A DNA stretch of 64,000 nt from Oceaniferula flava (GTDB lineage: Bacteria; Verrucomicrobiota; Verrucomicrobiia; Verrucomicrobiales; Akkermansiaceae), in contig NZ_JAFBGL010000005.1 of NCBI RefSeq assembly GCF_016811075.1, positions 62,001 through 126,000 on the forward strand, written 5' to 3'. Position numbers and translations under genes: made by a program. Below, in pieces: positions 22,510 to 26,724 of the stretch (position 1 is the first letter of the stretch; each line of letters starts with the position of its first letter). The notes under the pieces were generated by a model that searched no databases, was not told the origin of the DNA, and saw only the letters and a list, made by a program, of their open reading frames with translations.

Positions 22510-22523
22510 TTAGCCTAGGCTAA
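22510..22523. promoter_or_regulatory. Perfect 14-bp palindrome TTAGCCTAGGCTAA, candidate DtxR/MntR-type operator
   Basis: The palindrome is 44 bases upstream of the binding-protein ATG, directly after TATAAA (22502-22507), which could be a -10 element, so it would overlap the transcription start. Its half-site TTAGCC resembles DtxR/IdeR/MntR operators (TTAGGTTAG-type half-sites). The operon it precedes encodes a DtxR-like domain fused to a permease, so autoregulation by metal is a natural inference. A possible alternative -35, TTGACG, lies at 22533-22538. Confidence 0.55.
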
Positions 22524-22567
22524 AAATAGTAGTTGACGCTAGACTTGTGCCCTGCTATCTCGTGGCC

Positions 22568-23536
22568 ATGGCAAAAAAGATCATCGTCATTGTGTTGGTG
22601 CTGGGCGCCTTTGTGGGCGGCTTGGTGCTTCTCTTGAATCAAGAACAGAGCCAGGCCGGCGCGGATTTCAAACCGGGTGCTGCGCTGAATGTGGTGGCCA
22701 CCTCCACCATGGTTGCCGACATGGTCCGGGAGATCGGCGGCGACCGGATTGCGGTGCATGGCATCATGGGGCCCAAAGTGGACCCGCATAGTTTTCAAGT
22801 CACCTCTTCGGCTTCGGCGGCCTTGCTGAAAGCGGATTTGGTGTTCTACAGCGGTCTCCACCTCGAGGGCAAGATGCAGGACGCCCTGGAGCAGCGGGCG
22901 GCTGAGAAAAAAGACACTTTCGCAGTGACCGATGGCATCCCCGAGGACCAACTGCTGAAGCCGCAGGAAGAGTTTTCCGGCTACCACGACCCCCATGTCT
23001 GGGGCAGCCCGGAGCTGTGGGTGAACTGTCTGGATGTGGTGGTGAAGCAGCTCGCCGAGGCCGACCCGGAGGGTGCCGATAGCTACCGTGAAAATGCCGA
23101 GCGCTACCGCGCCGAGATCCTTGAACTTCATCGCTGGGCGAAAGATCGCATGGCAGAAGTTCCGGAGTCCCAGCGGGTGTTAGTCACCAGTCACGATGCC
23201 TTTTTCTACTTCGGCCAAGCCTACGGCTTCGAAGTGCGCGGCCTGCAGGGAGTTTCCACCAGCTCCGAAGCGGGGCTGAAGGACCGGGCCGATCTAGTTG
23301 CTTTCATCAAGGAACGTCAGCTGAAAACCATCTTCCCGGAATCCAGCGTCAATGCCAAAGGGATCAAAGCGGTCGCCGACGAGGCCGGAGTGGCAGTGAG
23401 TCCCCACGAGCTGTTCTCCGATGCCATGGGCGAACCGGGCGACGTCGTTGAGCTGCATGGCGAGAGCTACGACAAAGGAACCTACATCGGTATGATCAAA
23501 CACAACGTGAACAGCATTGTCGACGGACTGAAATAA
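22568..23536 (+). CDS. ytgA: Metal ABC transporter substrate-binding protein (TroA/YtgA type)
   Basis: 322 residues from ATG 22568; the frame also opens with a GTG seven codons earlier. An N-terminal hydrophobic segment (IIVIVLVLGAFVGGLVLLL) serves as signal or anchor; there is no lipobox Cys. It is a cluster A-I metal-binding protein: ligand positions are His74 (DPHSF), His143 (DPHVWG), His209 (VTSHDAF) and Asp285 (LFSDAMG), the His-His-His-Asp set of TroA-like proteins, and the GLQGVST segment supports this. It captures Zn, Mn or Fe outside the membrane and delivers it to the permeases encoded downstream. First gene of the ytgA-B-CR-D-like operon; the 154-base gap to the ATPase gene is the longest in the operon. 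Confidence 0.9.
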   Translation: MAKKIIVIVLVLGAFVGGLVLLLNQEQSQAGADFKPGAALNVVATSTMVADMVREIGGDRIAVHGIMGPKVDPHSFQVTSSASAALLKADLVFYSGLHLEGKMQDALEQRAAEKKDTFAVTDGIPEDQLLKPQEEFSGYHDPHVWGSPELWVNCLDVVVKQLAEADPEGADSYRENAERYRAEILELHRWAKDRMAEVPESQRVLVTSHDAFFYFGQAYGFEVRGLQGVSTSSEAGLKDRADLVAFIKERQLKTIFPESSVNAKGIKAVADEAGVAVSPHELFSDAMGEPGDVVELHGESYDKGTYIGMIKHNVNSIVDGLK

Positions 23537-23690: not shown

Positions 23691-24455
23691 ATGACCAGTG
23701 ATCCATCTATCGCTCTCGAAACGCACGATCTGACCGTGACTTACCACAAGCGGCCTGTGTTGTATGGCATCGATGTCGCGGTGCCCAAGGGGAACTTGGT
23801 CGGCATCATCGGGCCGAACGGGGCAGGGAAATCCACCCTTATTAAATCGATCATGGGGGTGGTTCCTTCTTCCGGTGGTTGGGTGGAAGTCTTCGGGGAA
23901 CCGTTGAAGCATAACCTCCATCGGGTCGGCTACGTGCCGCAGCGTGAAAGTGTCGATTGGGACTTCCCTGTGACCGTCATGGACGTCGCGCTGATGGGCA
24001 CCTACGGCAAACTCGGACTATTTCGTCGCCCCGGAAAGGCGGAGAAGCTCAGAGCGCATGAGGCGTTGGAAAAAGTAGGGATGCTGCCCTACGCGAATCG
24101 ACAAATCGGCAACCTCAGCGGCGGCCAGCAGCAGCGGGTCTTTCTCGCCCGTGCCCTGGCCCAGGACAGCGACCTCTACCTGATGGACGAGCCCTTTGCG
24201 GGGGTCGATGCCGCCACGGAAAAAGCCATCATCGAGCTGCTGCAAGAGATGCGCGAGCGGGGGAAAACCGTGCTGGTGGTGCACCACGATTTGCAGTCGG
24301 CGAGTGAGTATTTCGATAAGCTGCTATTGCTCAACATGCGCTTGGTCGCCTTCGGTGATGTCAGCGAGGTGTTCACCCCTGAGCTGTTGCAGAAAACCTA
24401 CGGGGGTCGACTGACCATCCTCAGTGAAATGGCCGACCGGGCTGCGAAATTGTAA
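23691..24455 (+). CDS. ytgB: Metal ABC transporter ATPase
   Basis: 254 residues, normal for the family. Walker A GPNGAGKS (about residues 42-49), signature LSGGQQQR, Walker B LYLMDEPF, and switch His in VVHHDL are all intact. It energises uptake through the two permeases encoded immediately downstream; the next start is 11 bases away. Its place between the TroA-like binding protein and the fused permease matches troB of Treponema and ytgB of Chlamydia. Metal specificity (Zn, Mn or Fe) cannot be decided from an ATPase. Confidence 0.92.
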   Translation: MTSDPSIALETHDLTVTYHKRPVLYGIDVAVPKGNLVGIIGPNGAGKSTLIKSIMGVVPSSGGWVEVFGEPLKHNLHRVGYVPQRESVDWDFPVTVMDVALMGTYGKLGLFRRPGKAEKLRAHEALEKVGMLPYANRQIGNLSGGQQQRVFLARALAQDSDLYLMDEPFAGVDAATEKAIIELLQEMRERGKTVLVVHHDLQSASEYFDKLLLLNMRLVAFGDVSEVFTPELLQKTYGGRLTILSEMADRAAKL

Positions 24456-24466
24456 TTGCGACGACC

Positions 24467-25774
24467 ATGAATTTTCTAGCCGTGTTCGACTTGCTGATTC
24501 CTGCCACTGGTGCAGGAAAGGCAATTCTAGCAGCGGTGTTGTTGGGTGCCGGAGCTGGCCTGTTAGGCAGCTTCGTGGTGCTGCGTCGCGTTGCCCTGAT
24601 GGGCGACGCGATTAGCCACGCCGTTCTCCCCGGCGTGGTGGCCGGACTGATTTACAGCCCGGATCGGCACCCGGGGATGATTTTCCTCTGCGCCGCTCTC
24701 GCTGGATTGTTAGGGGCGGGGATTGTGCGGGCCTTGATGAGCACCACTCGGCTGAAGTCAGACACCGCGCTGGGCATTGTGCTGGCGTCGTTCTTTGCCT
24801 TTGGCATCATGTGGCAGTCGAGAAACCAAGCTGGCACCGCCGGGGTGATGAATTTCCTCTTCGGCAATATCGGCTCGATCAATGCGGCGGACTTGAAGAT
24901 GATGATGGTCGCCACCGTACTGCTCTGCGTGGTCGTCTTTGTGCTCAAACGTCCGCTCCTGGTCATGAGCTTCGATGAAGGGTTTTCCCAAGCGCTGGGT
25001 TATCCGGTGCGGATTTTGAATGGCATTTTCTACTTCCTGCTGACCTTCTCCGTGGTGGTCGCGCTGCAGGCGGTCGGCGTGGTGCTGGTCTCGGCAATGT
25101 TGATCACGCCGGCAGCGGCGGCCTATTTGCTGACCGATAAGTTTGGCAAGATGCTCCTGCTTTCCATGGCTTTCGGTGTGCTTTCGGGCATCATCGGCGG
25201 GGTGATTTCGGCCAATGTCAATGGCATGCCCACCGGCCCGGTGATCACGTTGGCCGCCACGGTCGTCTTTGCAGCGGTCTACTTTGTGGCTCCGAAGCAT
25301 GGCGTGCTGGCGAAGTTACTTCGCACGGTGAAACGTCGCCGTCGGGTGCGTCGTGAGAACACCCTGAAAGCAATCTATCAGATCCAGGAAAGCGGCGGCT
25401 TCACCCACGAGGACGTGAGCCTGATCGAGATCGCGCGCAAGCGCCGAAACACCGAGGACCATGCCCGCAAGGAATGTGCATCGTTGCTCAAATACGGCTT
25501 CATCGAGATGTCGGGCGACGGTCACTCGGTGCACCTCACTGCAGCCGGCTGGAAGCGTGCCATGGAAATGGTGCGGAACCACCGACTCTGGGAACTCTAC
25601 CTGACCAACGAGGCCAACTACGCCGATGACCACGTGCACGAGGATGCTGAGAAAATCGAACACATCCTCGGTGCCAACACCGTCAAGCAGCTCGAGAAAG
25701 ATCTCGATTTTCCCGAACTCGATCCCCACGGCAAACCAATCCCCCAGCCGCAGTTACTCACTCCCGTTTCCTAA
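24467..25774 (+). CDS. ytgCR: Metal ABC permease fused to a DtxR-family repressor domain (YtgCR-like)
   Basis: 435 residues. Residues 1-285 are an ABC-3 family permease with about eight membrane helices (for example GDAISHAVLPGVVAG, TPAAAAYLLTDK). A basic linker (VKRRRRVRR, 288-296) leads to a winged-helix domain (about 297-365) and a DtxR/MntR dimerisation region (366-425). MntR metal ligands H77, E99, E102 and H103 are matched by His372, Glu395, Glu398 and His399; D8 and E11 are replaced by Asn298 and Lys301. In Chlamydia trachomatis the same fusion, YtgCR, is cleaved to release an iron-dependent repressor of its own operon. The operon order here is identical, so the same logic is inferred: transport and regulation in one polypeptide. 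It overlaps nothing; ytgD starts 3 bases after its stop. Confidence 0.9.
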   Translation: MNFLAVFDLLIPATGAGKAILAAVLLGAGAGLLGSFVVLRRVALMGDAISHAVLPGVVAGLIYSPDRHPGMIFLCAALAGLLGAGIVRALMSTTRLKSDTALGIVLASFFAFGIMWQSRNQAGTAGVMNFLFGNIGSINAADLKMMMVATVLLCVVVFVLKRPLLVMSFDEGFSQALGYPVRILNGIFYFLLTFSVVVALQAVGVVLVSAMLITPAAAAYLLTDKFGKMLLLSMAFGVLSGIIGGVISANVNGMPTGPVITLAATVVFAAVYFVAPKHGVLAKLLRTVKRRRRVRRENTLKAIYQIQESGGFTHEDVSLIEIARKRRNTEDHARKECASLLKYGFIEMSGDGHSVHLTAAGWKRAMEMVRNHRLWELYLTNEANYADDHVHEDAEKIEHILGANTVKQLEKDLDFPELDPHGKPIPQPQLLTPVS

Positions 25775-25776
25775 AC

Positions 25777-26724
25777 ATGAACTACCTCACCATCCCATGG
25801 GAAAACCTCGGCTTCGGCGCCTTCTGGCTGATGCTGATGGCATTTCTGGTGGCGCTGCCCTGCTCGCAGATGGGGTCCTTTCTCATCCTGCGGCGGATGT
25901 CACTGACGGGGGATGCGATCAGTCACAGCGTCTTCCCCGGCGTGGTGATTGCCTTTGTGTTCACCGGTGATCTGGCCTCGCCCTGGTTGATCATTGGCGC
26001 TGGGCTCGCTGGGCTGGCATCGACTGTATTCATCGAGCTGATCCACAAGAAAACCCGGGTGAAACAGGATGCCGCCACAGGTATTTCCTTCACCGCCTTG
26101 TTTGCCCTCGGCGTGGTGTTGATGGAGACGATGCTGGGGAAAAACGTCGACCTCGATCTTGATTGCGTGCTGCACGGGCGGCTGGGGCTTTTACTCGAAG
26201 AACAACATCGCGAAATCTTCGGCCTGATGGTGCCTCAGCCGATCTTAATCATGGCTGGAGTCGCGCTGCTGACGATTTTCCTGATGATGTTGTTTTACCG
26301 GGTTCTGCTGCTGAGCGCCTTCGATCAAGGTTTGGCCGCCTCTTACGGGTATAAGCCTGCCGTGATCCATTATTGCACGATGTTTGCCGTGTCCTTCATC
26401 GTGGTGGCGGCTTTTCAGGCCGTAGGAGCCATTCTTGTCATCGCTTTGCTCATTCTCCCGGGGGCGGCCGCTTATCTCTGCACGCATCGGCTCAAGATCA
26501 TGCTGCTGCTGGCTTCCATCCACGCGCTGCTCTCGGCCGTGGGCGGACTTTATTTGCATGTTTGGTTCAATACCGACATGGCCTCCGCCGTGGTTGTCAG
26601 CGGAGGAGTTCTGCTGATCCTGGCTTGGTTGCTGGGGCCGGTGGATGGTTTGATGTGGAAATGGCTCAAGGATGAGGAGGAGACTCCCGACAAGGATGCT
26701 TCACATTCCGCTTGCTCCGAGTAG
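25777..26724 (+). CDS. ytgD: Metal ABC transporter permease, second subunit
   Basis: 315 residues, ABC-3 family, with about eight membrane helices; GDAISHSVFPGVVIAF and LLILPGAAAYL are characteristic. No C-terminal regulatory domain; it ends in an acidic tail (DEEETPDKDAS). It pairs with the permease half of the upstream fusion to make a heterodimeric channel, as in TroCD and YtgCD. Its start is 2 bases after the upstream stop, so translation is probably coupled. purH begins 45 bases later on the same strand, possibly within reach of the same transcript. Confidence 0.92.
   Translation: MNYLTIPWENLGFGAFWLMLMAFLVALPCSQMGSFLILRRMSLTGDAISHSVFPGVVIAFVFTGDLASPWLIIGAGLAGLASTVFIELIHKKTRVKQDAATGISFTALFALGVVLMETMLGKNVDLDLDCVLHGRLGLLLEEQHREIFGLMVPQPILIMAGVALLTIFLMMLFYRVLLLSAFDQGLAASYGYKPAVIHYCTMFAVSFIVVAAFQAVGAILVIALLILPGAAAYLCTHRLKIMLLLASIHALLSAVGGLYLHVWFNTDMASAVVVSGGVLLILAWLLGPVDGLMWKWLKDEEETPDKDASHSACSE

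Follow-up and report, generated by a model that had tools for sequence, protein, structure and literature searches.

The fused permease gene and its operon

The window (the whole stretch of 64,000 nucleotides of Oceaniferula flava DNA analysed here) contains on its + strand an operon of four genes. They encode a metal-binding substrate-binding protein (SBP) of the ZnuA/TroA/MntC type (22547-23536; PF01297, E 6.6e-78), an ABC ATPase (23691-24455; PF00005) whose best NCBIfam match is of the MntA type and lies below the cut-off of that model, a permease fused to a DtxR-like domain (24467-25774), and a second permease that according to Pfam, locus annotation and the trees is without a DtxR domain (25777-26724). 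This order of SBP, ATPase, permease and permease is ordinary for this class of transporters. In the case of the SBP, the in-frame ATG at 22568 is probably the start codon rather than position 22547, and its closest match among solved structures was Treponema TroA (188 bits). The operon most likely serves the import of Mn2+ and/or Fe2+.

The preliminary description of this DNA had claimed that the third gene of a metal-uptake operon encodes one polypeptide of 435 residues, made of a permease and a DtxR/MntR-type region, and had allowed for a stop codon between the two halves. Both the polypeptide and its place in the operon proved to be real: positions 24467-25774 form a single open frame of 435 codons with zero internal stops, its product matches PF00950 and PF02742 and is supported as a fusion by AlphaFold and Foldseek, the SBP and ATPase genes lie 5' of it and a permease gene follows. 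Another 13 verrucomicrobial genomes share this architecture, and about 45 additional operons also contain the fusion. A sequencing or assembly artefact as the source of the fusion was ruled out, the fusion being conserved in about 59 operons.

The permease part (residues 1-273; 24467-25285, + strand) was identified as an ABC-3 metal permease by its match to PF00950 (residues 18-273, E 4.5e-66) and by Foldseek, which gave PsaBC (7kyp) as the closest solved structure (36% identity, E 1.5e-16). The metal ligands of PsaBC are Asp46 and His50 (PMC11779740), and the invariant residues D47 and H51 of the fusion apparently correspond to them, a correspondence that was drawn from motif and numbering rather than from superposition. 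The AlphaFold model of the whole protein (mean pLDDT 91.5) shows an ABC-3 permease with a DtxR fold of two domains behind it, and the two are connected by a continuous helix (residues 280-309; 25304-25393, + strand) that comprises the basic linker and helix 1 of the winged-helix part (wHTH). Linker and wHTH are confidently predicted to be rigid.

Conservation of the two halves of the DtxR-like tail

The metal-binding and dimerisation half of the tail (residues 358-427; 25538-25747, + strand) matches PF02742 (Fe_dep_repr_C, E 3.2e-23) and holds the ligand residues H372, E376, H391, E395, E398 and H399, and this match together with H372, E376, E395, E398 and H399 places it with the metal-binding and dimerisation domains of the DtxR/MntR family. 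The structure closest to the DtxR-fold part in Foldseek was that of the Mn-dependent repressor DR2539 (8pvt), and the model of the isolated domain resembled the structures of DR2539, IdeR, SloR and DtxR with E values of about 1e-9 to 1e-7. All 64 fused domains of our alignment (A3, which includes that of the window) matched PF02742. In SloR numbering, H76, E80, E102 and H103 are near-invariant across them, and at position 99 Glu or Asp prevails. N298 of the fusion occupies the position of the helix-1 ligand, Asp7 in SloR, which is Asn in 13 of the 14 loci of the window's architecture; most operons with two fused permeases have His or Asn there in the first one, and Asp stands in 33 of the 36 fused domains on second permeases. 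A motif HRLWE (residues 372-376; 25580-25594, + strand) has a Trp that is invariant among the fused domains of A3 and rare in stand-alone regulators, with a single occurrence (L243) among those aligned on SloR numbering. Mean pairwise identity in the dimerisation segment was 0.65 in the window's group against 0.60-0.61 in stand-alone regulators.

The DNA-binding half presents a different picture. PF01325, the Pfam model of the DtxR DNA-binding domain, found no match in the window's fusion nor in any of the 64 fused domains, whereas all 23 stand-alone controls matched both PF02742 and PF01325. The recognition helix (residues 330-342; 25454-25492, + strand) is degenerate by SloR-numbered alignment and AlphaFold, with a mean pairwise identity that reached 0.50 in DtxR-type and 0.81 in MntR stand-alone proteins but lay at 0.16-0.30 within the fused groups, and the difference persisted at matched divergence, since for dimer-domain identities of 0.6-0.7 the identity of the recognition helix was 0.20 in window-type domains, 0.54 in DtxR and 0.83 in MntR. 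The fused domains hence lack both the PF01325 signature and the conserved recognition helix that mark the DNA-binding part of the family, which suggests that the fused tail no longer reads DNA. Because AlphaFold still predicts the wHTH fold in the tail with high confidence, some DNA binding may persist; the idea of a complete loss of the wHTH was abandoned, as the structure models retain it. In the groups with two fused permeases, the wHTH is about as positively charged as in stand-alone DtxR.

Distribution and ancestry of the fusion

A scan of 388 genomes of Verrucomicrobiota (in the sense of GTDB) with PF02742, followed by locus annotation, yielded 14 operons like that of the window, in which only the first permease is fused, and eight with the domain on both permeases and an adjoining gene for a stand-alone DtxR. 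Searches in Planctomycetota and Armatimonadota, with 40 more loci annotated, enlarged the set to about 59 fused loci, so that the architecture, proposed for searching across genomes in the preliminary description, extends over three phyla. Orthologues of the second permease usually carry a DtxR domain in Planctomycetota, Armatimonadota and other Verrucomicrobiota. Of the 59 loci, 31 have two fused permeases, and in 23 of these 31 a stand-alone gene of the DtxR/MntR type lies near the operon; these counts were made by hand and are approximate, some loci lying at contig edges or having broken frames (L256, L258). In one of these, a fused operon of Abditibacterium (L258, 6864-10639), the genes are split into short frames, probably by assembly errors.

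In the permease tree the first and second permeases (C and D) separate, and the operons with a single, fused permease (L262, L273, L274) branch before this split. The tree of the domains, which was built from a short alignment and in which several supports are moderate, recovered the fused domains as monophyletic (support 0.93), the C domains and the D domains forming a clade each. The view, first suggested from the window, that the fused domains share one old origin is therefore upheld within the sampled phyla. These trees would fit one fusion before the C/D duplication and a later loss from D in the lineage of the window. Because the basal operons encode just one permease, which is fused, the ancestral transporter would have possessed two sensor domains.

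A passage of a 2017 review (PMC5599777) credits Thompson et al. 2012 with orthologous permease-repressor fusions in 11 phyla, and going by that passage the fused architecture is not new. Our literature searches for other permease-DtxR fusions returned papers on Chlamydia only. A search of plasmids found no fusions; all that it found, on plasmids of haloarchaea (H1-H6), were separate neighbouring genes, one for a metal ABC permease directly followed by one for a DtxR, possibly the unfused precursor order. Variants of the tail itself were also observed. Some D permeases (L239 4623-5732, L240 4741-5859, L245 5191-6270) keep a winged-helix-like tail and have lost the metal/dimerisation domain. In two of the single-permease operons (L262 5543-7108, L273 5589-7106) the fusion bears an extra C-terminal segment that by eye is like the third (SH3-like) domain of DtxR and gave no Pfam match to FeoA; it suggests that a whole DtxR was captured.

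The promoter palindrome and stand-alone regulators

Upstream of the operon lies a perfect 14-bp palindrome, TTAGCCTAGGCTAA (22510-22523; strand not applicable), which by exact search and conservation is a candidate MntR operator. It occurs once in the window, and a pattern search found this to be the sole exact copy in the window's genome; a scan for a sigma-70 promoter at the palindrome found nothing. The same genome encodes on another contig a canonical MntR of 144 residues, which scores 136.5 bits with the NCBIfam MntR model, just below the cut-off of 138. Stand-alone regulators are present in all 14 genomes with the window's architecture, nine of which contain a close homologue of mntR, the other five having DtxR-type regulators only. 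With the box called present when at least 10 of its 12 specified bases matched, it preceded the operon in 9/9 genomes that have mntR and in 0/5 that lack it (Fisher p 0.0005, uncorrected for kinship), a comparison in which related genomes are non-independent data points and the patterns of both operators discussed here were defined partly on promoters that were later scored. In genomes with DtxR-type regulators the box is often replaced at the operons by TTTTGA-N4-TCAAAA. In two genomes in which we detected no fusion (G281, G334), the box of the 22510-22523 type separates divergent mntR and mntH genes, and at L038 it is situated between the fused operon and a divergent mntR.

The simplest reading of this co-occurrence is that these operators would be read by the stand-alone MntR or DtxR and not by the fused domain; as to the fused C-terminal half binding the operator of its own operon, the presence of the putative box follows stand-alone mntR across the 14 genomes, which is indirect evidence against such binding. 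Two sites with one mismatch to the palindrome were also observed. One in the window's genome (L276 site 1501, G000:C2:498586) lies about 100 bp upstream of a gene for a TonB-dependent receptor, possibly a further MntR target, and the other (L277 site 1501, G000:C3:254351) lies upstream of a DUF3450 gene.

Functional interpretation of the fusion

Placing these results together, we consider it probable that an old DtxR domain was captured by the permease and now senses metal in the cytosol, gating the transporter by trans-inhibition. Transcription of the operon would be repressed by the stand-alone MntR, presumably bound at TTAGCCTAGGCTAA. Metal rising in the cytosol would occupy the conserved His and Glu sites of the dimerisation half, the metal-bound sensor would reorient, and the rigid helix 280-309 would pass the change into the permease, which would then be slowed or locked. 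The pattern behind this reading is that the metal sites and the dimer half were kept while the PF01325 signature was lost, that a rigid helix is predicted to run into the membrane domain, that about half of the loci provide two copies of the domain per transporter, and that repression can be assigned to another protein. Counting against it are the residual wHTH fold, the positive wHTH charge in the double-fused groups, the Asn as helix-1 ligand, because of which the metal chemistry of the window's protein may differ, and the single domain of the window-type transporter, where only one of two permeases is fused and there is therefore no domain dimer within one transporter. The chlamydial YtgR, reportedly cleaved and a repressor of its own operon (PMC6504234, PMC7755916, PMC5599777), also counts against it.

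This last example is the basis of the function first proposed, that of a membrane-held repressor similar to YtgCR, in which proteolysis would free the C-terminal domain to bind metal and repress its own operon. The architecture is the same as that described for YtgCR in the literature, C. trachomatis YtgR has been reported to repress both the ytg and the trpBA promoters after cleavage (PMC5599777, PMC6504234, PMC7755916), and the tail of the window's protein has a predicted wHTH fold. We nevertheless consider such a repressor unlikely here and do not follow the preliminary description on this point, given the absence of PF01325 from the fused domains against its presence in every control (0/64 versus 23/23), the unconstrained recognition helix, and a likely operator that follows stand-alone MntR/DtxR regulators, these being encoded in 14/14 window-type genomes; the rigid helix predicted at the junction speaks as well against a flexible cleavage linker, although cleavage could still occur.

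Retention of the dimerisation half with loss of DNA reading, and the stand-alone DtxR often encoded beside the operon, would also agree with a local titration or coupling in which the membrane-bound domain heterodimerises with stand-alone DtxR/MntR and sequesters or delivers the regulator at the transporter. Against this, the regulator in the window's genome is of the MntR type, another branch of DtxR, and in many transporters the paired C and D domains already supply partners for each other; we consider this explanation quite improbable. A structural or assembly domain with no regulatory role, serving transporter stability or ATPase docking, is rather improbable too: the invariant Trp of HRLWE points to a contact specific to the fused proteins and the helix-1 ligand is altered, but most of the other metal ligands, which a scaffold would not need, are conserved across three phyla.

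The proposed metal-sensing gate can be compared with known systems. The tro operon of Treponema combines the order SBP-ATPase-permease-permease with a DtxR-type regulator of the transporter, and TroA is the nearest solved relative of the window's SBP; TroR, however, is a separate protein, whereas the DtxR-like domain of the window is fused to the permease. SloR, ScaR, IdeR and DR2539 share its two-domain fold and its metal and dimer motifs, but are soluble DNA-binding repressors with recognition helix and PF01325 intact. PsaBC and MntBC, Mn importers with the permease fold closest to the window's (7kyp), are homodimeric and have no DtxR tail described (PMC11779740). Chlamydia YtgCR (CT069) is similar by description, being reported as an ABC-type metal permease that is encoded in a metal-uptake operon and ends in a DtxR-like domain (PMC5599777, PMC7755916), and the window likewise has a permease::DtxR fusion within an operon of SBP, ATPase and two permeases; YtgR is nonetheless reported as a DNA-binding repressor, while the window's fusion has a degenerate recognition helix and its genome encodes a separate MntR. 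MetNI and ModABC, which are trans-inhibited ABC importers (PMC10710835), would be the functional analogues. They too have a cytosolic domain at a C-terminus, one that would bind the substrate being imported and lower its transport, and the likeness to the window's protein is one of anatomy; their sensor has another fold and sits on the ATPase, whereas here a DtxR fold sits on the permease and would presumably inhibit it.

The architecture is real, conserved and previously known, and its function probably differs from the one first proposed. Regulation of this type of importer has been studied mostly at the level of transcription. Should the gate reading be true, a repressor turned gate would clearly exemplify the conversion of a transcription factor into a domain that regulates a transporter, and the operons with both fused and separate DtxR would be explained. 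For permease::DtxR fusions in most hosts, we see about even chances that they are trans-inhibited metal ABC importers in which a whole DtxR repressor was captured once before the C/D duplication and reused as an allosteric metal gate, while stand-alone MntR/DtxR kept the task of reading DNA and chlamydial YtgR would be the exception; a repressor turned gate would also allow the origin of the chlamydial YtgCR system to be tested directly. Beside stand-alone DtxR genes we also observed proteins of about 345 residues (L061 5701-6738, L062 6389-7423, L266 3740-4774) that match PF02742 and FeoA and not PF01325, possibly another non-DNA-binding derivative of DtxR.
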